From the IMG/VR virus record IMGVR_UViG_3300031952_000005, positions 1 to 64,000 of that record: 64,000 nucleotides of DNA; one strand, given 5' to 3'. A model generated the notes under the pieces. It was given only the letters and a program-made list of their open reading frames with translations. It searched no databases and was not told where the DNA came from. This DNA comes from a virus. Shown in pieces: positions 6,594 to 33,258 of this stretch. Made by a program: the position numbers and the translations under genes. Numbering within the stretch: the stretch's first letter is position 1; each line of letters begins with the position of its first letter.

Positions 6594-6726
6594 CATATCA
6601 GAAGATTTTGGAGCAGGTTTTTTTATTATGAAAGAACCTGTTTTATCATCTACTTGTTACAGCGTGTATGTAAAAATACTTTGGTTTAAAATTGGTTTTG
6701 GTATAAAATATGGAAACAAATTATGA
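6571..6726 (+). CDS. Possible small hydrophobic protein
   Basis: 51 residues from the ATG at 6571 (MKLQLICNISEDFGAGFFIM, ending KIGFGIKYGNKL). It overlaps the dUTPase end by 23 bases and the next gene start by 17, so it would fill the only gap between them. An upstream TTG start is unlikely. Hydrophobic and aromatic composition; no homolog recognised. It could be a chance frame. Confidence 0.35.
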   Translation: MKLQLICNISEDFGAGFFIMKEPVLSSTCYSVYVKILWFKIGFGIKYGNKL

Positions 6727-7084
6727 TACAGGACAAATAGAAATTGTTGGTCCATACGGTAGAGTTTTTTTATATACACATAAAACTGCAAGCGATTTAA
6801 TCAATGTTGTTAGTGATGTTTTGTGCAGAGTAGTAAGATGGGATGATCCTGATTATCTTGCAAGAATGATTTTTTGCAGAATGATTCCTAAAAGCAAATG
6901 GGATAGTGAATTAGGATTTGGTATTGGTACTCAAATGTACAAAGATGTCAATATATTAATAACACTTGATACTGTTCATGCTACAGTTAAAATATTTTCT
7001 TATTTTGATACAAGTGCTACACGCGGTGTAGCAATGTCTTTTGCAGATTTTATAAATAAATATGCAGATAATGCTAATTTATAA
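6710..7084 (+). CDS. Hypothetical protein (124 residues)
   Basis: METNYDTGQIEIVGPYGRVF. Mixed alpha/beta, with VVRWDDPDYLARMIFCRMIP in the middle and a FADFINKYADN helix at the end. Soluble. No motif recognised. Last gene before a 125-base non-coding promoter region. Confidence 0.6.
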   Translation: METNYDTGQIEIVGPYGRVFLYTHKTASDLINVVSDVLCRVVRWDDPDYLARMIFCRMIPKSKWDSELGFGIGTQMYKDVNILITLDTVHATVKIFSYFDTSATRGVAMSFADFINKYADNANL

Positions 7085-7148
7085 AAGTAATAGAAAATAA
7101 AGTTAAGTCATAGCGTTATAGTCGAAAAAACTTTTTCATAAATATCAA

Positions 7149-7184
7149 TTTGTCATTTTTAGTGAAAAATATGTATTATTTTAG
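7149..7184 (+). promoter_or_regulatory. Candidate promoter upstream of 7210 gene
   Basis: The 125-base gap 7085-7209 has no gene. TTTG at 7149-7152 is followed 21 bases later by TATTATTTTAG (7174-7184), a partial match to the Bacteroidota minus-7 TAnnTTTG. A short inverted repeat GAAAAA-AC-TTTTTC lies just upstream, near 7121-7134. Moderate to weak evidence. Confidence 0.4.
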
Positions 7185-7209
7185 TACGTAAAATTAATAA
7201 TCAACTAAA

Positions 7210-7494
7210 ATGATATACCAGTTGCCCAATGGTAAAAGTATAGAAATGTCAATAGAACAGTATTTAAGAATGTCTGATGATGAACTTAAAAACATGGTTG
7301 CTTACAATTTTGGTGAAGAATTTAATGATCCTTTTATTTTTAGTGTATTAAGACACGGTCTTGCAAAAGAAGACGTTGAAGAAGAATTAGAAAATGATTT
7401 TTCTGAAGAAGAAATAGAAGATCTACTAGATGTTGCACCAGAAGATAAGATATTTGATGAAGACTATATTGACTACGATAATTTAGAACAATAA
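7210..7494 (+). CDS. Acidic conserved hypothetical protein
   Basis: 94 residues, MIYQLPNGKSIEMSIEQYLR followed by MSDDELKNMVAYNFGEE. The N-terminal NGKSIEMSxEQYLxMSDxEL pattern is familiar from small proteins of crAss-like and other Bacteroidota phages. The C-terminal third is extremely acidic (EDVEEELENDFSEEEIEDLL). The next start codon follows its stop directly. Function unknown; the charge could suit a DNA mimic or a protein-binding adaptor, which is inference only. Confidence 0.7.
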   Translation: MIYQLPNGKSIEMSIEQYLRMSDDELKNMVAYNFGEEFNDPFIFSVLRHGLAKEDVEEELENDFSEEEIEDLLDVAPEDKIFDEDYIDYDNLEQ

Positions 7495-7914
7495 ATGATT
7501 CAAGTAAAAAAAAAGGTTTGTGATAGTTGTAAAACAGAACAAATCATATGGAAAAACCACAATGGCAATAAGTGTTGCAGACAGTGTTGGTTAAAGGAAC
7601 ACTTGTCACCACTTCTTAAAAAACTACCAAAACCTATTAAACCAAAATCTGACAAAAAAAGTATACAAGATCAATTATATACTGTTTTGAGAAACAAGTT
7701 TTTTCAAAATGATAATAACAAGTCTTGTAAAGCAAAATTACAAGGGTGTATGTTAATTGCTTGTGACGTACATCATTTATATTCAGGTAGCAGTAGATCA
7801 GAACATTACTTAAATGTAAAAGAATGGATACCAGTTTGTAGAAACTGCCATTCTGTAATTCATAATAAAATGACAAAAGAAGAACTTATTAGTTTGAATT
7901 TAAAAAAAATATGA
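7495..7914 (+). CDS. HNH-type zinc-finger endonuclease (NinG-like context)
   Basis: 139 residues. The N-terminal zinc ribbon has C9-x2-C12 and a second Cys pair in NKCCRQCW; then comes a Lys-rich linker (KPIKPKSDKKS), then an HNH-like core with KAKLQGC, CDVHHLYSG and WIPVCRNCHSVIH. The paired His and CxxCH knuckle fit a beta-beta-alpha-metal nuclease. Similar small proteins sit in phage recombination modules (NinG-like) or act as nicking enzymes. It starts at the stop of the preceding gene, so it is probably a resident operon gene and not a mobile insertion. Confidence 0.75.
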   Translation: MIQVKKKVCDSCKTEQIIWKNHNGNKCCRQCWLKEHLSPLLKKLPKPIKPKSDKKSIQDQLYTVLRNKFFQNDNNKSCKAKLQGCMLIACDVHHLYSGSSRSEHYLNVKEWIPVCRNCHSVIHNKMTKEELISLNLKKI

Positions 7915-7924
7915 TGTATATTTG
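7893..7924 (+). promoter_or_regulatory. Consensus Bacteroidota promoter for GIY-YIG gene
   Basis: TTTG at 7893-7896, a 20-base spacer, and TATATTTG at 7917-7924 match the Bacteroidota primary-sigma consensus exactly. It overlaps the end of the HNH gene and lies 18 bases before the ATG of the homing endonuclease at 7943. Confidence 0.7.
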
Positions 7925-7942
7925 TAGTATAATACTAAAGAT

Positions 7943-8668
7943 ATGCATCATAATAATTTTTATGTTTATTTACACAGACGTTTAGATACAAATGAAATAT
8001 TTTATGTTGGAATTGGTAAAACACCACCTCCACATAAAGTTTGGAAACATAACACAAAATATTCCAGAGCTTTTGAAAAAACTAAAAGAACTCAATTTTG
8101 GAAAAATATTATTTGTAAAACAGATTATTTTGTTGAAATATATTTTGAATCTGAAAGTGAAGCAGAAGTTAAATTAAAAGAACAAGAGTTAATATTGTTA
8201 TATGGTAGAAAATGTTGTGACAAAAATGGAACTCTTGTTAATTTTACATCAGGTGGTGACAGAAATGATGGTCCTAAAAATTATAACATAAAGATTATTC
8301 AAAAAGATCTAAACAATAATGTTGTAAAAATATGGGAACAACTAAAAGATATTGAATTAGAATTAGGTTATTTAAAAACTAATATTGTAAAATGTTGTAG
8401 AAAAAAACAAATTACAGCGTATGGATATTTTTGGGAATATGATAATGAATTGTATAAAGATAAATATTCTAGTACAGCAAGAAAAAAAACAACAAACAAT
8501 GGTGTGGGAATTGAACTTTTTGACAAAAATAATAAGTTATTAAAAACTTTTAGATCACAACAAGAAGTTGCTGATTACTTAAATATACACAGAACAACTG
8601 TTAACAGGTATTTAAACAATAAAAACAATAAAAATAAATACTTTACATTAAAGTATAGAAAATGGTAA
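7943..8668 (+). CDS. GIY-YIG homing endonuclease with NUMOD1 repeats
   Basis: 241 residues. The N-terminal GIY-YIG-type nuclease spans about residues 5-110: FYVYLHRRLDTNEIFYVGIGK for the paired motif, RTQFWKNI for the Arg block, and a catalytic Glu in SEAEVKLKEQELILLYGR, followed by LVNFTSGGD. Two NUMOD1-type DNA-binding modules follow: KIIQKDLNNNVVKIWEQ to YGYFWEY, and IELFDKNNKLLKTFRSQ with the helix-turn-helix EVADYLNIHRTTVNRYL. This architecture is that of free-standing homing endonucleases, which cut and spread into alleles lacking them. It has its own consensus host promoter and breaks the overlap pattern of neighbouring genes, both signs of an inserted selfish gene. Confidence 0.9.
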   Translation: MHHNNFYVYLHRRLDTNEIFYVGIGKTPPPHKVWKHNTKYSRAFEKTKRTQFWKNIICKTDYFVEIYFESESEAEVKLKEQELILLYGRKCCDKNGTLVNFTSGGDRNDGPKNYNIKIIQKDLNNNVVKIWEQLKDIELELGYLKTNIVKCCRKKQITAYGYFWEYDNELYKDKYSSTARKKTTNNGVGIELFDKNNKLLKTFRSQQEVADYLNIHRTTVNRYLNNKNNKNKYFTLKYRKW

Positions 8669-8688
8669 AATTTTAAAAAACAAAGAAA

Positions 8689-8946
8689 ATGGATAACAAG
8701 AAGTTTGTTGGTTATTACATCATTGGCGCGTACAATGAAGAAGAAGCACAGAAAGGTGCTGGATTATTATTATGGTCACAACAAAAACCAAATTGTGTGA
8801 CAAAATTCTTTAGTAAATTATTGTTAAATATCTACTGGATTGATAAAGAAAATTACACACCGGTAGAAAAGGTATTACAAGTAAGTAAAGCTGAGTTTCC
8901 TAAACATAGAGTTTACAAAAAGAAAAAAACTGATGAAACAAAATAA
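8689..8946 (+). CDS. Small hypothetical protein before helicase
   Basis: 85 residues, MDNKKFVGYYIIGAYNEEEA, then GAGLLLWSQQKPNCVTKFFS and a Lys-rich end. The pattern (G-Y-x-h-x-x-A-x-x-x-E-E-A, then FxxxLLxIYWID) is typical of a short conserved protein encoded next to helicases in flavobacterial phages. It overlaps the helicase start by 14 bases. Function unknown. Confidence 0.6.
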   Translation: MDNKKFVGYYIIGAYNEEEAQKGAGLLLWSQQKPNCVTKFFSKLLLNIYWIDKENYTPVEKVLQVSKAEFPKHRVYKKKKTDETK

Positions 8947-10042
8947 ACGAGAAGAAATCCAGAGTGAAGCACTTGCTGCTACACAAGGAATCAATCGTTG
9001 TACATTAGGTGTCAGTATTGGTGTTGGTAAAACTTACATAGGTTTACAACACATGCAAAAAGAGTTTGATAATGGTGCAAGAAACTTTATGGTTGTTGCA
9101 CCAAAACTTTCTATATTTACTTCATGGAAAGATGATGCACTAAAGTTTGGTGTAGAACATTTGTTACCTTGTATTACATTTACTACATACTTATCGTTGA
9201 CAAAACAAAATGTAGCATACGATTGTTTGTATTTAGATGAGTGTCATAACTTACTGTATACTCACGAAAATTATCTTCTTTTCTATCATGGTAAGATTGT
9301 AGGTCTTTCTGGTACACCTCCTCGTCATGCTATTTCAGAAAAAGGTATAATGGTTAGTAGATATTGTCCTATTGTGTATTCGTACATAACAGATGATGCT
9401 ATTGATGATAACATACTTAATGATTATCGTATTATAGTACATTTATTACCATTATCAACCTATAAAAACTTTAAAGTTTCTACTAAAGCAGGTGGGGGAT
9501 TCATGACTTCAGAAAAAGATCATTATACTTACTGGACAAGTAGAATAGAAAAAGAGTTTTCTATTGGTTCTAAACAAAAATTACGCATCATGCGCATGCA
9601 AGGACTAATGCAATATCCTACAAAAGAAAGATACGCAAAAAAGTTACTTGAAAATCTAGATGACAAGTGCATAGTGTTTTGTAATAACACTGATCAAGCT
9701 GATCGTGTTTGTGACAACAGTTACCATAGTAAGAATGTAAACAGCGAGGATAACCTCAATGCATTTAAACAAGGATTGTTTAACTGTCTGTCATCAGTGC
9801 AGCAACTAAATGAAGGTGTAAACATTCCAAATTTAAAGTATGGAATAATATTACACGCATATAGTAACGAACGTAAGAGTAATCAACGTATTGGTAGATT
9901 ACTGCGACTTAATCCAGATCAAGAATCAATTATACATATTCTTGCATATAAAGACACTGTTGATACTGAATGGGTATTGAGTGCGTTAAGTGATTTAGAT
10001 CAATCAAAAATAACATGGAAAGATGCAGAATATAACAGTTAA
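8933..10042 (+). CDS. Superfamily 2 DEAD/DEAH-box helicase
   Basis: 369 residues. Motif I is SIGVGKTY (K33), motif II is D102-E-C-H105, motif III-like is LSGTPP, and the C-terminal RecA fold contains CIVFCNNTDQADRV, LNEGVNIPN (motif V) and QRIGRLLRL (motif VI). This is a minimal two-RecA-domain SF2 translocase like the UvsW- and SNF2-type helicases of phage replication modules. It probably acts on branched or stalled DNA intermediates. The genes on both sides overlap it, so it is part of an operon. Confidence 0.92.
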   Translation: MKQNKREEIQSEALAATQGINRCTLGVSIGVGKTYIGLQHMQKEFDNGARNFMVVAPKLSIFTSWKDDALKFGVEHLLPCITFTTYLSLTKQNVAYDCLYLDECHNLLYTHENYLLFYHGKIVGLSGTPPRHAISEKGIMVSRYCPIVYSYITDDAIDDNILNDYRIIVHLLPLSTYKNFKVSTKAGGGFMTSEKDHYTYWTSRIEKEFSIGSKQKLRIMRMQGLMQYPTKERYAKKLLENLDDKCIVFCNNTDQADRVCDNSYHSKNVNSEDNLNAFKQGLFNCLSSVQQLNEGVNIPNLKYGIILHAYSNERKSNQRIGRLLRLNPDQESIIHILAYKDTVDTEWVLSALSDLDQSKITWKDAEYNS

Positions 10043-23646: not shown

Positions 23647-24066
23647 TTATATTTTCGCAAGTTGGAAGTGCATAGGATCAGTTCTACCTTTCCAAGATCC
23701 ACCCCAGTCAAACCCTGCATCTGTAAAACATTTAACAAAACCAGGTGTTAGTTTTGGTATTTGATTGAGTTGGTTCTCAAAAGCATTAATATCTACTGCA
23801 ATACCCCATGAGTGTAATGACATAGAAGTGAGTGCTCTCTTTTTTCTTATGTTAAAACAACCATCCCATGTTTTTATTTCTTTTACATATCCTGTTGCAA
23901 TAAGATTTTTAAATGCTTGTCCAAGAGGAGCAACCATGTCTTTGTTACAATAAATTCTTTTAGGTATCAAACCTATTTCCAATTCACTTGGTACATCCCA
24001 TACAATCATACTACGTTCTAATGTTGGATCACCATACTTTTTTAATGCTTGTGCACTTGTTACCAT
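23647..24066 (-). CDS. Endolysin, M15-family peptidase
   Basis: 139 residues from the ATG at 24066; an upstream in-frame ATG at 24090 lies inside the glycosyltransferase gene. The zinc site is MSLHSWGIAVDIN (H85, D92) and DPMHFQL (H133), the S-x-H-x6-D...H pattern of M15 (VanY/L-Ala-D-Glu) peptidases. WDGCFNIRKKRALTSMS is the substrate-binding strand. It cuts the stem peptide of peptidoglycan to release progeny. Last gene of the lysis transcript; TAATG overlap with the gene before it. Confidence 0.93.
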   Translation of the reverse strand: MVTSAQALKKYGDPTLERSMIVWDVPSELEIGLIPKRIYCNKDMVAPLGQAFKNLIATGYVKEIKTWDGCFNIRKKRALTSMSLHSWGIAVDINAFENQLNQIPKLTPGFVKCFTDAGFDWGGSWKGRTDPMHFQLAKI

Positions 24067-25085
24067 TATTTCTTTAAGTATTTTACCCACACTGCTTCAG
24101 ATGCTTTTGAATTTTTAGAAAGTAGGTGTTTATTAATAAATTTTAATGTTGTAGCAATTCTTAATGTAGTTTTAATTGTATCTTTTATTTCCTTTGCATC
24201 TTTAGTTACATTTACTTGTGAAAGTGAACTTACAAAAGAAATTTCTTTACAAGTAACAATAGGAATTTCTTGATTTACAAAATCTGCAGCTACTATATTG
24301 TATGTTTCTGACAAAGATACTTGTAATCCAATGTCCATTTTGGATACCAGATAAATAAATTCACTGTGATTTAACCACCCATGTTCTACAAGAGTGTGTT
24401 TTGTATCTTTGAATAACGCTTTTATATTTTTAAGACCATTCTGACCATCTTGTTCTACTCTACTAGAGTTAATATGAAAATTTAAAACTTTGTTTTTTTC
24501 ATTTGCATATATTATAGCAGCAACTGTTTGTGTTAAACCATTTTTCAGTGGTCTGATTGCTCCAAATAGTCCAATATTAATAACTTTATCATTTTTAACT
24601 TTACAGTTACCTCCAACAGGTTTACTAATAGGATAGTAATTTGGTAAATAATCTATTTTACCAATTAATGGCGTCATAGACTCTATAAAATATTTAGAAT
24701 TAGAACTTATAATAACATTAGAATACTTAATATATTCTCTTAACCATTCCATTGCAACACCTTCGTTTGCTATAAAAGGAAGTTCAGAATGTAATCTAAT
24801 AATCCATTTTACTTTTGGATGTAATTTTTGCAATACTTCAAATTTACTAGGTACTACCCATAGTGCCTCAATTATGACAATATCAGGTTTGTTCTCAGTA
24901 ACATGTTTATTAATTTCATTATTATCTAGTACTTCAATAATCTTTGTGTCAATGCAATTTTTTAAAAGCATGTCATTTACAAAATTTGCAGAGTTAAACA
25001 ATCCACTACTTGTAGTAGAATAACTAGTGTTAGAATAAATCTGTCTTTTTTTAAGAATGAATAAAACTTTTTTTGCAGTTTTCAT
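24066..25085 (-). CDS. GT-B glycosyltransferase
   Basis: 339 residues from MKTAKKVLFILKKRQ at 25085, one base after the upstream stop; the earlier in-frame ATG at 25151 lies in that gene. The N-terminal Rossmann half has KPDIVIIEALWVVPSK and WIIRLHSELPF; the C-terminal half has VINIGLFGAIRPLKNGLTQT, VEHGWLNHSEFIYLVSKMDI and LQVSLSETYNIVAADFVNQE, the pattern of GT4-like retaining transferases. It transfers a sugar from a nucleotide-sugar. It is unusual between spanin-like and endolysin genes; possible targets are the host surface (superinfection exclusion) or a virion protein. Confidence 0.85.
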   Translation of the reverse strand: MKTAKKVLFILKKRQIYSNTSYSTTSSGLFNSANFVNDMLLKNCIDTKIIEVLDNNEINKHVTENKPDIVIIEALWVVPSKFEVLQKLHPKVKWIIRLHSELPFIANEGVAMEWLREYIKYSNVIISSNSKYFIESMTPLIGKIDYLPNYYPISKPVGGNCKVKNDKVINIGLFGAIRPLKNGLTQTVAAIIYANEKNKVLNFHINSSRVEQDGQNGLKNIKALFKDTKHTLVEHGWLNHSEFIYLVSKMDIGLQVSLSETYNIVAADFVNQEIPIVTCKEISFVSSLSQVNVTKDAKEIKDTIKTTLRIATTLKFINKHLLSKNSKASEAVWVKYLKK

Positions 25086-25086
25086 A

Positions 25087-25716
25087 TTATTGTTGTTTTC
25101 TAAATGATATTTTCCAATATGCTCCAACACCATAAGTAAATGTACCATCAAAGTTAATTCCTATATTTGCTTGGTATATCTGATCTTTTTTAGTCTTGTA
25201 TAATATTCCAGGAGTCAATAATTGCAAAGCGTTTTTATTACCAAATAAATTGCCTCCTACATAAAACTGACGTACAGGATCTTTTTCTTTTGTTATTACC
25301 ACTGTTTTTGTGACAGTAGGTATTTTTATGTTTGTAGTGTATGTTCTTTTACCAAGTTTGTTTAACCATACAGTGTCTATTACTGTTACAGTACCAAGAC
25401 TATCTATTTTTAATGTGTCTTGATATACTCTTCTTGCAATATGTTGTTTAAGTAAGTAACCAAATCTTGCATTACAAGTGTCTATATCACTACTTTGAGT
25501 GTATTGTGGACCCTTTGGTTTTATATAAACAAATGTTTTTACTGGTACTTTTTTAATGACAGTATCAATAACATTTTTATATACAGTGTCAATCTGTATG
25601 ATAACTTCTGGTTTATTATCAATTATTATTGGACTATTACATGATCTTTGTAATACAATAATTGCTATTAAAATTCCAATAACTATTAAATTAAAAAAAG
25701 ATTTTATTTGTTTCAT
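25087..25716 (-). CDS. Membrane-anchored spanin-like protein
   Basis: 209 residues. An N-terminal transmembrane anchor (FFNLIVIGILIAIIVLQ) is followed by a Cys (RSCNSP), a long periplasmic stretch of strand-rich repeats (VIIQIDTVYKNVIDTVIKKV, TVTVIDTVWLN), and a C-terminal region with strands like outer-membrane beta-barrel proteins (QFYVGGNLFGNKNALQLLTP, ANIGINFDGTFTYGVGAYWK). Position just after the holin suggests a role in outer-membrane disruption (unimolecular spanin-like). This is inference from context and topology. Confidence 0.65.
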   Translation of the reverse strand: MKQIKSFFNLIVIGILIAIIVLQRSCNSPIIIDNKPEVIIQIDTVYKNVIDTVIKKVPVKTFVYIKPKGPQYTQSSDIDTCNARFGYLLKQHIARRVYQDTLKIDSLGTVTVIDTVWLNKLGKRTYTTNIKIPTVTKTVVITKEKDPVRQFYVGGNLFGNKNALQLLTPGILYKTKKDQIYQANIGINFDGTFTYGVGAYWKISFRKQQ

Positions 25717-25720
25717 TGTG

Positions 25721-26158
25721 TTATATTTTTATTTCATCAATATCATGTCTGACTTCTTTTGCTCTGCTTAATACATTTTTTACAATACGCCATATTTTTA
25801 TTTTAAGTGCTGCTTCTACATTTTCTTTAATTGAAGTTCCTTCTATTAAAATTATTACAATACATGCAAGTTTTGTTGCAAAATAAGTAACTGATATTAA
25901 TTCCAGTAACAAATCATTTAACAAAAACTTGTCTATTGGAAACAATAATAAAATACACATTTCATACAGTAACATTTTACTAATTATGTTAGAAAGAGTT
26001 CTGCTTCTTATGGAAGACCATCCTTGCAATTTTACAGATTTAAAAACTCCTGTAAAAGTATCTAACATTACAATTAATCCAACCGCAATCACCAGTCCTT
26101 GAATAGGTGTAAAAAAAAGTAATAACCCTGCAAAAGCATTTAGTAAATACGTTTTCAT
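25721..26158 (-). CDS. Holin, phage_holin_4-like
   Basis: 145 residues with three or four hydrophobic segments: residues 3-30 (LLNAFAGLLLFFTPIQGLVI), 60-80 (MLLYEMCILLLFPIDKF) and 85-105 (YFATKLACIVIILIEG), and a charged, amphipathic C-terminus. MLDTFTGVFKSVKLQGWSSI matches the D-x-x-(T/L)-G block of the phage_holin_4/TcdE-like family. It forms the timed inner-membrane lesion that lets the M15 endolysin reach peptidoglycan. First gene of the lysis cassette. Confidence 0.85.
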   Translation of the reverse strand: MKTYLLNAFAGLLLFFTPIQGLVIAVGLIVMLDTFTGVFKSVKLQGWSSIRSRTLSNIISKMLLYEMCILLLFPIDKFLLNDLLLELISVTYFATKLACIVIILIEGTSIKENVEAALKIKIWRIVKNVLSRAKEVRHDIDEIKI

Positions 26159-26553: not shown

Positions 26554-26731
26554 AAGATTAACATTGCAAACTAAACTTTTGATATGCGAATTTAAAGAAA
26601 AGTATCCATCAGTACCCGATGAACTTATTTCAGAAATATTACAACTTGAAATTCCATCTTTAAAAAAGTTTTTTAATGATGAGTACATTGTTGTACCATC
26701 AAAAATGAATAACACAAAAAATAAAATATGA
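26537..26731 (+). CDS. Small helical hypothetical protein
   Basis: 64 residues, MTYPSKRLTLQTKLLICEFK, then EKYPSVPDELISEILQLEIP. The helical layout with a short turn could be a helix-turn-helix-like fold, but the evidence is weak. It overlaps both neighbours (17 and 4 bases). Confidence 0.6.
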   Translation: MTYPSKRLTLQTKLLICEFKEKYPSVPDELISEILQLEIPSLKKFFNDEYIVVPSKMNNTKNKI

Positions 26732-27348
26732 AAGACTTTTATGATCATCTTGTCAAGAATGAAATAACTCCAAATGGATTATTTGTATTACATTGCATTT
26801 ATAAAAATTATAGTTATTTAAACTATATCAATACAGCAACAGAATTGTACAGATTACAATTACATGACTATGTTGCTAAAAAGGAAAATGAGTTTGGTAG
26901 TTCTTATTTAATTACTACTAAAGGATTACATCTTCTAAAAGAATCAGAAGACATTATACTTCGTAACAAAAGAATTAAAAAGAATGAAGTTCCATTCGAA
27001 GACTGGCAGGAAAAAATTATTGCATACAATAACCATTTTCCAAAAGGTAAGAAAGAAGGTTCTTCGGTAAGTTTCAGAGCAAATCCAAAAGAACTGTACG
27101 ACAAATTTAAATGGTTTTTTGCAGAATATTCCGATTATGACTGGGACATGGTGTTTAAAGCAGTTGCAGAATATGTAAAACCATTTGATGAAACATCTGA
27201 TTATCAGTACATGCAAACTTCTAAATATTTTATCAAGAAAGAAGACAAAAATAGAACTACTACTTCTACATTAGGCACAATGTGTTATAATATAACAGAA
27301 GGTAACCTTGAACAAGTTTCTGACAACTACAAATACTTTGGTGACTAA
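26728..27348 (+). CDS. Winged-helix-like protein, possible late regulator
   Basis: 206 residues. The N-terminal 80 residues fit a winged helix: EITPNGLFVLHCIYKNYSYL, then a recognition-like helix NTATELYRLQLHDYV, then the wing SSYLITTKGLHLLKESE. The C-terminal half is helical and aromatic (YDKFKWFFAEYSDYDWDMVF, VKPFDETSDYQYMQTSKYF). It lies on the opposite strand to the genes on both sides and ends at a two-way terminator, so it is expressed separately from the late operon. A DNA-binding regulator or packaging-related protein is possible. Confidence 0.65.
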   Translation: MKDFYDHLVKNEITPNGLFVLHCIYKNYSYLNYINTATELYRLQLHDYVAKKENEFGSSYLITTKGLHLLKESEDIILRNKRIKKNEVPFEDWQEKIIAYNNHFPKGKKEGSSVSFRANPKELYDKFKWFFAEYSDYDWDMVFKAVAEYVKPFDETSDYQYMQTSKYFIKKEDKNRTTTSTLGTMCYNITEGNLEQVSDNYKYFGD

Positions 27349-27526: not shown

Positions 27527-27892
27527 TTACGTTATTAATAAAATTGTATAAATAATTATTCCTATTATAGAAGATATAAACCAAGAAGCAACTACATCTT
27601 TGTCACTTTCAAATTGATTAGGTCTGCTCTTTCCTTTATAACTTGCATACATACCTTGTGCTCTTTCAAACCCCCAATATAAAGCAAGTGGTACAGCTAG
27701 TAATACAAAGTATTGAAACCACAATGCTTCATTAAGTTTAAAAGATAATTTTAATAATGGAGCAAATCCTATTATAAAAAACACACTTACAAAAATGTGT
27801 TCAATCCAATTGCTTGCTACAATTTTCTTCTTACTTTTCATATCTTGAAAATAAGCAGCAAATACTGATTTCCAATAATTTAATTTTTCCAT
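27527..27892 (-). CDS. Multi-pass membrane protein
   Basis: 121 residues. Three transmembrane segments: IEHIFVSVFFIIGFAPLLKL, WFQYFVLLAVPLALYWGFE, and WFISSIIGIIIYTILLIT at the C-terminus. Basic cytoplasmic loops (KSKKKIV, KGKSRPNQ). Similar small proteins occur near tail and lysis genes of flavobacterial phages. Function unknown. Confidence 0.65.
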   Translation of the reverse strand: MEKLNYWKSVFAAYFQDMKSKKKIVASNWIEHIFVSVFFIIGFAPLLKLSFKLNEALWFQYFVLLAVPLALYWGFERAQGMYASYKGKSRPNQFESDKDVVASWFISSIIGIIIYTILLIT

Positions 27893-27905
27893 TTTGTTTT
27901 TGTTT

Positions 27906-29387
27906 TTAAATTTTATAATATTTTAATGTGTAAACTATTCCTGTAAATGTATCTGTTACTTTTATAATATACCAACGACTTTTTAGTGTGGTTAAATTAT
28001 TGCTAGTTGATTTTAGTATTCCTGATAAATTATAAACACCTATTGTATATGAAAATAAATTAGTAACTTTAATTATATTGTTCTCAACGTAAACTGTAAC
28101 AACTGGTTTTGGGGGTGATACAGTTCCTATTGTTACTGTTTGATTTAATTTGTTATACCCTATTACTGAATTGTATATGTTTATATTAGCAAATCTTATT
28201 GAGTATGCTGGATTAGTTAATGTCTTATCTGGTATGTTTAAGCATATTTCATAGAATCCAAAAGGTACATTATGAGAGAGTAAATCATCAGAGATTGTTA
28301 TTGTTGTACCTGCATCCCATCTTCTAATATCAGTGTTTAATTTAAAGGAATACACTAAACCATCTGCTGTATTTTTTAAAACTATGTATGCATCTCTTTG
28401 ATTATAAATATTTGCAAAACCTACATTTTTTATATTTAAAGTAATAACATTATTTGTTATATTTGAACTAACTAACTCAAATCTATAACCAAGTCTGTTT
28501 TGAATTTCATTATAACATTCTTGTGTTCTCCATAAATCCAACGTTGCAGGGTAGTATCCAAAGTTTAAATAATTATAATGAAACCTTGTTAACCAACCAA
28601 ACACTACTGCACAATCTTGTTTTGTAGCAAATAGTGCATTTGATTCTCCCCCACAAAAAGTATATTTTGATTGAGAATCTAAATAAGTATATTCAGTTGT
28701 TGTATTTTTAAATGTACCTGAATCAGAGTTACTAGATAAAAAAGCATCGTTATGCAAACCTATTCTTGAACTGTTAGTTCCTTCAACCATTTGTTGAAAA
28801 TAAGGAGTTCTAAGCATTACCAATCTTTCAGGTGCTAGTTCCATTATTTTTAATCCTATTTCTTTTCTATCTGCTATATTTTGAGTTGTTAGCACACCTT
28901 TATCCCCATAATTAGATGTATAATACCATTCTCCATATTGACCTATAAAACCAGCCTCAACTACATGAATAACATCTTGATTAGGAATAGTAATTACTTT
29001 TAATTGTTCTATGTGGTTTAGCAATATAATTTTACTAGCATCTACGTTGTCAGCTTCAGTATATCTAAATCTAAGAATACATTTAACACCTGAAGCTCTT
29101 AATGTGTTAAAATCAGTTTGAATATTATCTAAAAAAGTTTGAGAAATTGGGGTATTCTTAAACGCTCCTAAATCATAAATTCTAAGTATTAGTGTTATGT
29201 TTTCTGAAGTCCTCATTGTAGTTAATGAAGATTGAGATAGAAATGAATAAGTGCCTATACTATTTGATTTACTATACTTATACCAACCTCTTTCAGGATT
29301 GGCAAAATTGGTGTTGTCAGAAACATACGTAACTGATTGGCTAAAAGATAGTGTAGTGAATAATAATAATAAAAATAATTTTTTCAT
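27906..29387 (-). CDS. Secreted DUF4874/DUF4832-like protein with T9SS-like C-terminus
   Basis: 493 residues. It starts with a signal peptide typical of flavobacteria (MKKLFLLLLFTTLSFSQ, cleavage before Gln). DUF4874-like barrel: NFANPERGWYKYSKS, LILRIYDLGAF, CILRFRYTEADN and HVVEAGFIGQYGEWYYTSNY, which recall glycoside-hydrolase (TIM-barrel) strands with candidate acidic residues. DUF4832-like second half: RLVMLRTPYFQQ, GLHNDAFLSSNSD. The last 65 residues (VTVYVENNIIKVTNLFSYTI, GVYNLSGILKS, WYIIKVTDTF) resemble the type IX secretion sorting domain of Bacteroidota. Likely exported by the infected host and possibly acting on cell-surface glycans; could be a cargo gene acquired from a flavobacterium. 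Confidence 0.8.
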   Translation of the reverse strand: MKKLFLLLLFTTLSFSQSVTYVSDNTNFANPERGWYKYSKSNSIGTYSFLSQSSLTTMRTSENITLILRIYDLGAFKNTPISQTFLDNIQTDFNTLRASGVKCILRFRYTEADNVDASKIILLNHIEQLKVITIPNQDVIHVVEAGFIGQYGEWYYTSNYGDKGVLTTQNIADRKEIGLKIMELAPERLVMLRTPYFQQMVEGTNSSRIGLHNDAFLSSNSDSGTFKNTTTEYTYLDSQSKYTFCGGESNALFATKQDCAVVFGWLTRFHYNYLNFGYYPATLDLWRTQECYNEIQNRLGYRFELVSSNITNNVITLNIKNVGFANIYNQRDAYIVLKNTADGLVYSFKLNTDIRRWDAGTTITISDDLLSHNVPFGFYEICLNIPDKTLTNPAYSIRFANINIYNSVIGYNKLNQTVTIGTVSPPKPVVTVYVENNIIKVTNLFSYTIGVYNLSGILKSTSNNLTTLKSRWYIIKVTDTFTGIVYTLKYYKI

Positions 29388-29713
29388 AATTTAATTGCAT
29401 CTATACAATGCTTCTCGGTTAATATCCACACAAGAACTTTTCCTGTATTTGTTAAATTGTTAGTTAATATGTTCTTTCCTAATACACTTGATATTGTTTC
29501 TCCTTGTAATCCAAATGGATAAGATATTTTATTTTTAATAAGATGGTTATTCCAAAAGGTCCTAAACTCTACATTTCCCCAAACATCTAGATTAATAGCT
29601 GTGCTTCTGAAATAACCCTTCTTGTTTTTTACTTCAATAAAATTTACAATAGTCATTACAAAAATAAGAATTAATGCTATTACAAATAATAAAAATCCGA
29701 TTATCTGTTTCAT
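29384..29713 (-). CDS. Single-pass membrane protein
   Basis: 109 residues. N-terminal transmembrane segment IIGFLLFVIALILIFVMTIV, then a soluble domain with FRSTAINLDVWGNVEFRTFW and LTNNLTNTGKVLVWILTEKH. It overlaps the secreted protein gene as ATGA, so both are probably co-translated and may act together. No family recognised. Confidence 0.65.
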   Translation of the reverse strand: MKQIIGFLLFVIALILIFVMTIVNFIEVKNKKGYFRSTAINLDVWGNVEFRTFWNNHLIKNKISYPFGLQGETISSVLGKNILTNNLTNTGKVLVWILTEKHCIDAIKL

Positions 29714-29714
29714 C

Positions 29715-30989
29715 TTATACTCCGTAACTAGCTACTTGACTACCTGTTGAATCAACTGTTGCACAATTTTGCAACCTAACTGCAACAGCTGTTGAACTTG
29801 TTCCTAATTCTGTAACAAACTGAGCTGGCGTCATAAGTAAACTTCCTACAGTTGCATCAGTCAAAGTACCTAAAAGAACTGTATTAGGATTAGGAACTCT
29901 AAGAGTACCAGTGAATTCACTTGCAGCACCATATACTGTTCCAAATCTAACATTATTAGTGGTTGGTTGTCCCAATGCACCTGATGAACCAATATACATT
30001 ATTTGATTACCACTTGCAAAAGTCTGATAAGTTATTGATGTAGTAGTTGGTTCTATTGTTATTTTAGGTGCAAACACTGCTTGCCATTGATTATGATTAA
30101 ATAATAAACCACTCACCTTAACTAAACCTTGTGTACTAGCAACTCCATTACCAGCACCATTTGGTGATAAAACAGATATTGGACCACTAACTGTAACACC
30201 ACCTGTAGTTGTACTAACACCAGCGCCAGTATTATTAACATTGATAGCTCCTGTTACACTTACAGTTGCTGTAGGTGAATTAATTGCAGCACCTACACCA
30301 GTATTATTTATATCTCCAATAACATTTACTTGTGTTCCACCAGCAATATTTGCATTACCACTTGTATTTATCTGTCCTGTAATATTTATTGTTCCACTAG
30401 CTGAAATAATCCCACCACCAGCAGCACCACCACCACTAACTATTCCGTTGATATTTAATGTTCCACCAGCTACAAGAATACAAGCATTTCCAGATGAAGC
30501 ACCAGCACCTGTTGTTGATACAATACCATTTATAGTTAAGATACCTGTTGATGTTCCTTGAATATGATATCTACCACTAAACGTACCTGTATTATAAGTA
30601 ATATCTCCATTAATTGTTAATGAACCTGTATTAGAATGTAATACACTAACTTGACTTGCTGTATTAGATATTGTTGCTGGTAATGTAACATTAAGAGTTG
30701 CTGTAGTTCCACTACCACCAGCAAATTGAACTGGTGGTGTAGTAGAACCTATATAGATACCTTGACTTGATGTGCAAGTTAAATTACTACCATTATTTAA
30801 GTTAAATAGTCCACCAGCTACTATTGGTGCAGCAGCTGTACTTCTAACAGATAATACAGTAAAAGCTCCATTTACTTGAACAGTAAAATTATTTGAGAAT
30901 ACATCATCAGCAGCAGTTGGTACAGTACCAGTATTCCAAGTTGAACCACTTGACCAGTTTCCATTTGCTATTGCATATACATTTGCCAT
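29715..30989 (-). CDS. Beta-helix tail-fibre or adhesin-like protein
   Basis: 424 residues. The start MANVYAIANGNWSSGSTWNT, GTVPTAADDV is the typical opening of flavobacterial G8-like/right-handed beta-helix surface proteins. The middle is a string of imperfect repeats of the form (V/I)-x-(I/V)-x-G-x-I-(N/S)-x-(T/S)-G: ITGQINTSGNANI, VIGDINNTGVGAAI, VTGAINVNNTGAGV, VSGPISVLS. The C-terminus is compact (LGTSSTAVAVRLQNCATVDS). In this place, next to the tail-fibre gene, it is likely a receptor-binding or fibre-tip protein. Confidence 0.75.
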   Translation of the reverse strand: MANVYAIANGNWSSGSTWNTGTVPTAADDVFSNNFTVQVNGAFTVLSVRSTAAAPIVAGGLFNLNNGSNLTCTSSQGIYIGSTTPPVQFAGGSGTTATLNVTLPATISNTASQVSVLHSNTGSLTINGDITYNTGTFSGRYHIQGTSTGILTINGIVSTTGAGASSGNACILVAGGTLNINGIVSGGGAAGGGIISASGTINITGQINTSGNANIAGGTQVNVIGDINNTGVGAAINSPTATVSVTGAINVNNTGAGVSTTTGGVTVSGPISVLSPNGAGNGVASTQGLVKVSGLLFNHNQWQAVFAPKITIEPTTTSITYQTFASGNQIMYIGSSGALGQPTTNNVRFGTVYGAASEFTGTLRVPNPNTVLLGTLTDATVGSLLMTPAQFVTELGTSSTAVAVRLQNCATVDSTGSQVASYGV

Positions 30990-31332: not shown

Positions 31333-33258
31333 TTATGTGTATATTACTGTTACTCTGTCTGTCCAAGCAACATTTGTTGCAACACCTTTTGTTACAGAAC
31401 CAAAAGCATTTATAGTTAATCTTGTTATTGTCCAAACATTAGCTGATTCAGAACTTCCTTGAACAGCATAACCATTATATGAATAACTATTACTACCATC
31501 AAAGTTAGTAAAAGAATGTCTTCTAATAAATGATGAACCAGGTGTAACATTCAATGGAATTGGAACAAATGTTCTTACAGGTGTAGTACCACCAAATTGA
31601 AACTGATAACTTGGGTTTGAACCACCAGCTATTCTATTAGCATAAAATTTTAATACTATTCTATCTGTTGATAGAAAATTACCATCATTCCATAAACCAA
31701 TTGCAAAAAACTCAGAATAGGTACCATTACCAATAGGTAAAGTATTATCAGATGTTGCTACAAGTGTTTCTGTTCCACCACTAGTTCTTTTATAAGCTTG
31801 AAAATAAAAAGTAGCATCACCACTACCACTTACTCTTCTTATGTTACCAACAGTTGTAATGTTAAATACACCAGGGTTGCCAATTATAATATTTACTGGT
31901 GATGCTAATGCAGAAATAAATTGTGATGTACCAGTAATAGCACCTGTTGATACATCTGTAGCACCAGTGTTATAACTTGGGTCTGTTATACTAGTAACTA
32001 ATTTAGAATAACCACTAATATCACTAGCAGCAGTTGTTGGATATAAAATTAAGTTACTTGGTAAATCTTGTAAAGATATAAAATGTGTGCTACCATTATC
32101 ACCATCGTTTATTAATTCTGATGTTTTGGTTACCGTTGTACCCAATGTACCATCACCTTTTACATATTGAGCTGTTGTACCTGCACCTGTTATAGCAAAT
32201 GTTCCTGATGAAGTTATAGGAGTAGTAGGTGTAACATTAAATGCTGAAGGTAAAGTTAGTCCAACAGAAGTTACTGTTCCTGAACCTGAAGATATTGTCC
32301 AACTTCTATCAGCAGTTAAATCATAAGTAACGCCATTAATAGTTAATGTTCTTGCATTTGTTACAGGAGTATACCCAAGAGCTGTTGTTACATCTGAAGA
32401 TGTTATTCCTGTTAAGTATATAGATGTATCAAGAGTGAATACGCCTGCGGCTGTCATTTTTACAAATGGTGTACCGCTAGTCCATGTAGGATAGTTTAAC
32501 GCTCCCCAAGTACCTACAGTTGGTATTGTAGGTTTATTTAATATCTGATTGTTACCAGTTGCTGAGTTCCAATTCATAGGTTGTTGAACAATTGGAAATC
32601 CTGTACCAATATTTGTCCAATATAGTGTACTAGTAGGTATTATAGAATCGTTACTAGCTATGCATCTGTAAACATCTCCAAGATAATATACAATATCACC
32701 TATTACATATTCATTATTTGTTGCTGCTAAGTGGTCTGTTGAAAATGGTAAAGCTGAAAGTATAGTTGGTGGTGGACTTACAATACTTGACCAGTTATAT
32801 GACACACCATCTATATTAATTGTATCAAGATCAATAGTTAAATTATGTGCAGCATTTAAATTATCAACTATTTTTATAGTTGCAAATGCATCATTATTTA
32901 AATAAAGTGTTCTGTTATTTACAAAATTTGTAGATTGAATATCTGCAGTACTAGTACCACCAAAGTTAGAAATAGCATTTCCCGCATTAACAACTAACTG
33001 TAAAGATTGTTGTGGATTAATATTACTAATAGCATAATCTAATTTTTCAAGTGCTGATAGTACAGTATCATTTGCAGTAATTACGCCTGGAAGAGGTGTA
33101 AAGTTATCAAGTGGTCTATCTAATACTACATCAGAAATAGTTGTACCATCAAATAGTTTAAAATATCCATCTTTTAAATAAAATTTTTTAAAACCAGTTT
33201 GTACACCTCCAGGTGCTCCTGTATAATTAATAACATGTATAGGTGCAATAAATTTCAT
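31333..33258 (-). CDS. Tail fibre protein
   Basis: 641 residues. The N-terminal part (FKKFYLKDGYFKLFDGTTIS, NDTVLSALEKLDYAISN) looks like the attachment section. The middle contains typical fibre repeats: LGYTPVTNARTLTINGVTYD, GSGTVTSVGLTLPSAFNVTP, GTTAQYVKGDGTLGTTVTKT and STHFISLQDLPSN. The C-terminal 200 residues are a distinct beta domain (PVNIIIGNPGVFNITTVGNI, STDRIVLKFYANRI), probably the receptor-binding tip. These composition and repeat features are common to Bacteroidota phage tail fibres. Confidence 0.82.
   Translation of the reverse strand: MKFIAPIHVINYTGAPGGVQTGFKKFYLKDGYFKLFDGTTISDVVLDRPLDNFTPLPGVITANDTVLSALEKLDYAISNINPQQSLQLVVNAGNAISNFGGTSTADIQSTNFVNNRTLYLNNDAFATIKIVDNLNAAHNLTIDLDTINIDGVSYNWSSIVSPPPTILSALPFSTDHLAATNNEYVIGDIVYYLGDVYRCIASNDSIIPTSTLYWTNIGTGFPIVQQPMNWNSATGNNQILNKPTIPTVGTWGALNYPTWTSGTPFVKMTAAGVFTLDTSIYLTGITSSDVTTALGYTPVTNARTLTINGVTYDLTADRSWTISSGSGTVTSVGLTLPSAFNVTPTTPITSSGTFAITGAGTTAQYVKGDGTLGTTVTKTSELINDGDNGSTHFISLQDLPSNLILYPTTAASDISGYSKLVTSITDPSYNTGATDVSTGAITGTSQFISALASPVNIIIGNPGVFNITTVGNIRRVSGSGDATFYFQAYKRTSGGTETLVATSDNTLPIGNGTYSEFFAIGLWNDGNFLSTDRIVLKFYANRIAGGSNPSYQFQFGGTTPVRTFVPIPLNVTPGSSFIRRHSFTNFDGSNSYSYNGYAVQGSSESANVWTITRLTINAFGSVTKGVATNVAWTDRVTVIYT

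Follow-up and report, generated by a model that had tools for sequence, protein, structure and literature searches.

A predicted glycosidase with a type IX secretion-derived tail in a crAss-like phage, probably captured from Flavobacterium

Results

The window analysed here comprises 64,000 nucleotides, positions 1 to 64,000, of the 105,464-bp virus record IMGVR_UViG_3300031952_000005. The gene under study is a complete open reading frame on the minus strand (27906..29387, coordinates that we confirmed) that starts with ATG and encodes a DUF4874-DUF4832 protein of 493 amino acids; its start codon overlaps the stop codon of the upstream phage gene (29384..29713, minus strand) in an ATGA. The N-terminus, MKKLFLLLLFTTLSFSQ, is by inspection a textbook Sec signal peptide and the bacterial homologues begin likewise, which bears out the signal peptide that an earlier note on this DNA had claimed. 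It occupies residues 1-18 (MKKLFLLLLFTTLSFSQS; 29334..29387, minus strand) and is probably cleaved before Gln. The body, described in the same note as DUF4874/DUF4832-like, was confirmed by two Pfam matches far above their cut-offs: DUF4874 (PF16173) covers residues 30-196 (28800..29300, minus strand) with 129.9 bits (E 8e-38; gathering cut-off 30.1) and DUF4832 (PF16116) covers residues 208-401 (28185..28766, minus strand) with 174.8 bits (E 3e-51; gathering cut-off 29.2).

A model of the whole protein (pLDDT 77; its loops at 195-254 are weak) contains a TIM barrel, to which DUF4874 contributes the N-terminal part and DUF4832 the remainder as well as a beta domain. The closest PDB structures to the modelled body are GH5 enzymes and beta-amylase, at Z values of 10-11.6 over about 220 residues and 4 Å, and the predicted body looks like a GH-A-like glycosidase. 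Two glutamates, E153 in a GxxGEW motif (28929..28931, minus strand) and E248 in a GGE motif (28644..28646, minus strand), are identical in 43/43 homologues and are the likely catalytic pair, as candidates for the two carboxylates that clan GH-A enzymes bear on strands beta4 and beta7.

Residues 424-493 (70 residues; 27909..28118, minus strand) form a C-terminal domain (CTD) that we assign as derived from a type A cargo tail of the type IX secretion system (T9SS), based on homology to host tails and on an Ig-like model. The earlier note had likened this C-terminus to T9SS tails and proposed a TIGR04183/TIGR04131 profile search, which failed to match: NCBIfam returned nothing for the whole protein or for the tail alone, even at E≤10, and a direct assignment of the tail to these families was rejected on that account. 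TIGR04183, for which the curated cut-off is 23 bits, also gave no match at E≤1 across the whole phage genome, and no T9SS tail was found elsewhere in the carrier phage or its relatives. A local HMM made from 30 Flavobacterium T9SS tails gave the phage tail 7.2 bits, and 6 of 1000 shuffled sequences scored as high. TIGR04183 does recognise the tails of the closest bacterial homologues, at 26.7-31.9 bits, and with the tails of its closest Flavobacterium homologues the phage tail shares 43-48% identity. The likeness to T9SS tails thus held by homology, with a modelled fold that agrees with it, and did not hold by profile, the local HMM score being near shuffle level. The note had further taken the lack of a profile match together with a location solely in virions as speaking against its reading; of this pair, only the lack of a profile match was found.

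The alignment of homologues shows which sorting-related positions survive. The glycine of motif B (G456 in VYNLSG, loop L-beta3-beta4; 28020..28022, minus strand) is retained, the position at which a change to arginine in RgpB blocks secretion (PMC11285876). Also retained is K489 (27921..27923, minus strand), four residues from the C-terminus and at the same offset as RemZ K1110, the near-invariant lysine near the C-terminus of T9SS CTDs (PMC10994853). The glycine of motif D is replaced by arginine, R471 (27975..27977, minus strand). Each of the 30 unrelated Flavobacterium tails that we aligned has this glycine, as do 31/31 family members with an intact tail, a count that leaves out the 7 remaining alignment rows, which have no T9SS-type tail. 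Since type A motifs chiefly specify the fold while the binding pocket and recognition are plastic (PMC10994853), loss of this glycine need not abolish export.

Modelled alone, the tail adopts an Ig-like beta-sandwich (pLDDT 93) with six DSSP strands, T9SS type A domains being seven-stranded. A Foldseek search of 350,542 PDB chains placed the mirolase CTD at the top and the CTDs of RgpB, PorZ and FspA, the last being the translocon-bound CTD of F. johnsoniae, within the top 20; all are weak matches, with E-values from 0.068 to 0.94. VIA-align matched the tail to the F. johnsoniae RemZ, NucA, FspA and RemA CTDs at Z 6.6-7.1 (T9SS CTDs taken together, 6.5-7.1), tied with unrelated Ig folds. A PDB sequence search with the tail profile gave fibronectin-type noise and mirolase at E 0.12, and one with the whole phage protein gave no match. 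The predicted fold therefore agrees with a T9SS CTD assignment, proof of which does not come from fold alone.

The sequence comparisons point to the origin of the gene. Its nearest bacterial relatives, the DUF4874-DUF4832-T9SS type A proteins of Flavobacterium luteum and two MAGs, are 60-62% identical to it end to end, and those of F. luteum and L004 (L numbers are our handles for compared sequences) share its domain order, signal peptide and CTD; the phage copy differs from them by a shorter linker, a longer branch and the missing motif-D glycine. Homologues are present in 54 of 398 Flavobacterium genomes. In a maximum-likelihood tree of 43 homologues the phage protein falls within a T9SS-tailed Flavobacterium clade, where it is the sister of the F. 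luteum group (support 100/99) and has a long branch of 0.5. Every residue that is invariant throughout the 43 homologues is retained in the phage protein. Synonymous divergence between phage and host copies is near-saturated, dN/dS is far below 1 for both body and tail, and the GC3 of the gene is phage-like. These comparisons give good support to the capture of a gene for T9SS type A cargo from Flavobacterium.

The ratio of tail dN to body dN is 1.6-2.0 between phage and hosts and 2.5-3.2 between one host and another, and because it is lower than between hosts the phage tail shows no unusual relaxation; the argument is limited in that the divergence may partly predate capture, via an unsampled donor. 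The resemblance of the tail to T9SS CTDs is real and due to descent, with a signal too diverged for the profile, and continued T9SS export directed by this tail is plausible.

Among phages the gene is confined, in the data searched, to a single genome. No homologue of the protein was found among 50,697 deposited phages and it has no match in PHROGs. A single-sequence query of IMG/VR contigs found no close homologue, and a profile query found two distant ones, in L040 and L041, whose DUF4874-DUF4832 regions are only 33-39% identical to the phage protein and lack both signal peptide and T9SS tail. The two share the enzyme domains and differ by their fusion into long tail or tail-region ORFs. In L040, an unrelated phage contig, a tail-tip-like protein is fused to DUF4874-DUF4832 (6681-9290), and the matches to its tail-tip-like N-terminal region are tail proteins from phages of Rhodobacter, Alteromonas and Caulobacter; in L041 the same enzyme domain is fused into a long tail-region ORF. 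Two single-sequence queries for T9SS tails in deposited phages returned 0 and 3 records, a result of low sensitivity by which rarity is not established. Unannotated T9SS-tail-like segments were seen at LR745206.1:298450-298605 (E 3e-4) and MT836089.1:10943-11146 (E 8e-7).

Judged by its homologous portal and large terminase, the carrier is a crAss-like phage (Crassvirales). The portal matches a PHROG at E 2e-85 and the terminase at E 5e-63, and a tblastn search with the portal matched 131 records, many of them crAss-like, that include Bacteroides, Cellulophaga and Flavobacterium phages. Upstream of the gene and its left flank lies a 424-aa beta-rich repeat protein, a probable tail appendage (29715..30989, minus strand), that is absent from the crAss-like relatives and for which no viral relatives were found. 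Farther upstream is a tail-fibre-like gene (31333..33258, minus strand) of which the first 80 or so residues are 65-70% identical in relatives and most of the rest is replaced; a conserved N-terminus with a swapped remainder is typical of receptor-binding modules. On the other side lie a holin (Phage_holin_4_1 by Pfam; 25721..26158, minus strand), a late protein conserved in relatives that has an N-terminal membrane anchor and may be spanin-like by position (25087..25716, minus strand), and an M15 peptidase endolysin recognised by Pfam and PHROG (23647..24090, minus strand). A 361-aa gene (24066-25151, minus strand) separates the spanin-like gene from the endolysin. It is glycosyltransferase-like by eye only; Pfam placed it in no family above cut-off, and nothing in the PDB matched it clearly. 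As its two neighbours are only a few bases apart in the relatives L042, L045 and L046, it is a second accessory insertion. In two relatives, L042 (19726-21585) and L043 (10553-12418), a ribonucleotide-reductase-like gene, again by eye, adjoins the conserved convergent gene (26728-27348 in the window); neither the window nor L047 has it at that place.

The DUF gene itself sits between two small genes. The left flank (29384..29713, minus strand) codes for a conserved protein of 109 aa that has a hydrophobic segment at its N-terminus and homologues in other flavophages. The right flank (27527..27892, minus strand) encodes a 121-aa membrane protein, to which homologues from L103 and L104 are 78-81% identical. 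We compared this region, from the fibre gene to the conserved convergent gene at 26728-27348, in crAss-like relatives that share 72-80% identity in a neighbouring 1970-aa protein. Where it is covered, the DUF gene and both flanks are missing, and PF16116 is absent from the records of these relatives. In L105 the two flanking genes are 5 bp apart, and the DNA matches the window at 90.5% and 81% identity as far as the DUF gene boundaries; since the flanks touch and the match runs to those boundaries, L105 represents an empty site. The flanking genes are likewise adjacent in L108. By these comparisons the DUF gene is an exchangeable accessory cargo at the fibre-lysis boundary.

Other cargo was seen at the same place. 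A CAP-domain (PF00188) protein with a hydrophobic N-terminus fills the slot of the DUF4832 gene in L107 (6342-6812), and the same CAP-domain gene is located after the left flank in L106 (1485-1955). A similarity of about 29 bp between window positions 27896-27924 and L107 from 6794 extends into the final codons of the two cargo genes, which are unrelated and whose proteins both end in KYY plus two residues; this may be a recombination edge or chance. In deposited phages, the left flank has homologues only in those of Flavobacterium and Olleya (46/46 records), which belong to the T9SS-bearing Flavobacteriaceae, and this confinement favours a flavobacterial host. The left-flank homologue of Flavobacterium phage mumin6-1 lies directly upstream of a holin and an amidase, and in other phages the slot cassette adjoins lectin-like genes. 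An assembly chimera was considered and rejected on the ATGA overlap, on the flanking phage genes with matching DNA in other phages and on the phage-like GC3.

Discussion

Our comparisons place the descent, domain make-up, accessory status and slot of the gene on sequence evidence. The earlier note had regarded use of the T9SS by a phage as unusual, a view that does not stand since T9SS type A cargo encoded by a phage, with glycoside hydrolases (an endoglucanase and a GH39) among it, was reported in Cryophage (PMC7468147) and a crAss-BACON survey noted T9SS sorting domains in phage contigs (PMC6949934). Taken by its published description, Cryophage resembles the present phage in being a Bacteroidetes phage with carbohydrate-active enzymes that bear T9SS type A domains at variable gene positions, for which use of the host system was proposed (PMC7468147). 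Cryophage has a 76-kb genome and tails that were recognised by annotation (PMC7468147), whereas the present phage is crAss-like, its enzyme is DUF4874-DUF4832 and its tail is too diverged for TIGR04183 while being traceable to a host clade. What is new here relative to the Cryophage kind is the traceable host ancestor, the empty site and the shared slot; the weakness of the case is that it consists of one genome and a diverged sorting signal.

The likely activity of the protein is suggested by bacterial DUF4832 proteins. Genes of this family are sited in exopolysaccharide loci (PMC7112168), and SIR_1591 of Streptococcus intermedius, which by its description shares a TIM barrel and a DUF4832 beta domain with the phage protein, is extracellular and dissolves polysaccharide aggregates: added from outside, it disperses those that depend on Pel (PMC12345266). 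It differs from the phage protein in being Gram-positive and membrane-anchored and in having no T9SS tail, and DUF4874 is unmentioned in its description (PMC12345266).

The reading that we favour, with somewhat better than even confidence, is that of an accessory T9SS-cargo glycosidase, captured from the host and made late, that the T9SS carries to the cell surface or into the medium, where it cuts exopolysaccharide. Late timing, catalysis, passage through the T9SS and a benefit to the phage are steps that we infer. The protein would be expressed late, together with the tail-fibre and lysis genes, and would leave the cytoplasm via Sec; its type A-derived CTD would most likely carry it through the host SprA/PorV translocon to the surface or medium. 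There the enzyme would cut exopolysaccharide, which would probably let progeny escape the matrix or avoid sticking to debris.

The step most exposed to doubt is the passage through the outer membrane, and the main rival departs from our reading at this point. It holds that the signal peptide functions and that the T9SS has ceased to recognise the worn tail, so that a periplasmic glycosidase is freed at lysis and loosens the matrix round the burst cell. The absence of a TIGR04183 match, the weak local HMM score and the arginine in motif D all fit this, as does the place of the gene beside the lysis genes. The tail is, however, full-length, open and confidently folded in its model, keeps the motif-B glycine and the near-terminal lysine, and shows no relaxation beyond the host-host level, and the plasticity of type A recognition (PMC10994853) also tells against a dead signal; we consider a periplasmic enzyme a doubtful explanation that deserves to be kept in mind. 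An enzyme exposed on the surface before lysis could instead strip or trim a glycan receptor and thereby prevent adsorption by competing phages or by the progeny of this phage. The gene does share its region with a variable fibre gene, lectin-like genes stand beside the slot cassette in other phages, and superinfection exclusion was proposed for Cryophage T9SS cargo (PMC7468147). A lytic phage that expresses the enzyme late would have little time for exclusion to pay, and the computed evidence fits matrix clearing equally well; receptor trimming seems to us unlikely.

Two further explanations have little probability. That the gene is a recently acquired passenger with no function in the phage would accord with its occurrence in a single genome and its absence from relatives, yet all 493 codons stay open despite near-saturated synonymous divergence, part of which may predate capture, dN/dS is far below 1 in both parts of the protein, the invariant residues are retained and GC3 is phage-like; we hold this to be very improbable. 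Slightly less probable still is a virion-borne tail depolymerase of which the signal peptide is a relic. Its appeal lies in the position of the gene in the fibre cluster and in L040, where the same domains are fused to a tail-tip-like protein. A virion role is nonetheless unlikely because of the signal peptide, which, being cleavable, would take the protein out of the cytoplasm where virions are assembled; moreover L040 and L041 have neither signal peptide nor T9SS tail, and the phage protein has no tail-anchoring domain.

At the level of the phage group we can offer a broader and more tentative proposal, which we regard as possible rather than probable: several lineages of Flavobacteriaceae phages may have a common exchangeable slot for host-derived exported proteins, flanked by two small membrane-protein genes where the fibre and lysis regions meet, that is occupied here by a T9SS-addressed glycosidase displayed or released before burst.

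If the captured tail works, a lytic phage would be redirecting the outer-membrane secretion system of its host to deliver a matrix-cutting enzyme during infection, a mode unlike that of the usual virion-bound depolymerases. The gene would then provide a tractable test of T9SS exploitation by phages, a question that was raised in Cryophage by annotation alone. Having lost the motif-D glycine, it also serves as a natural experiment on which CTD residues can be spared, and the slot in which it lies offers a route to further exported phage effectors in flavophages.
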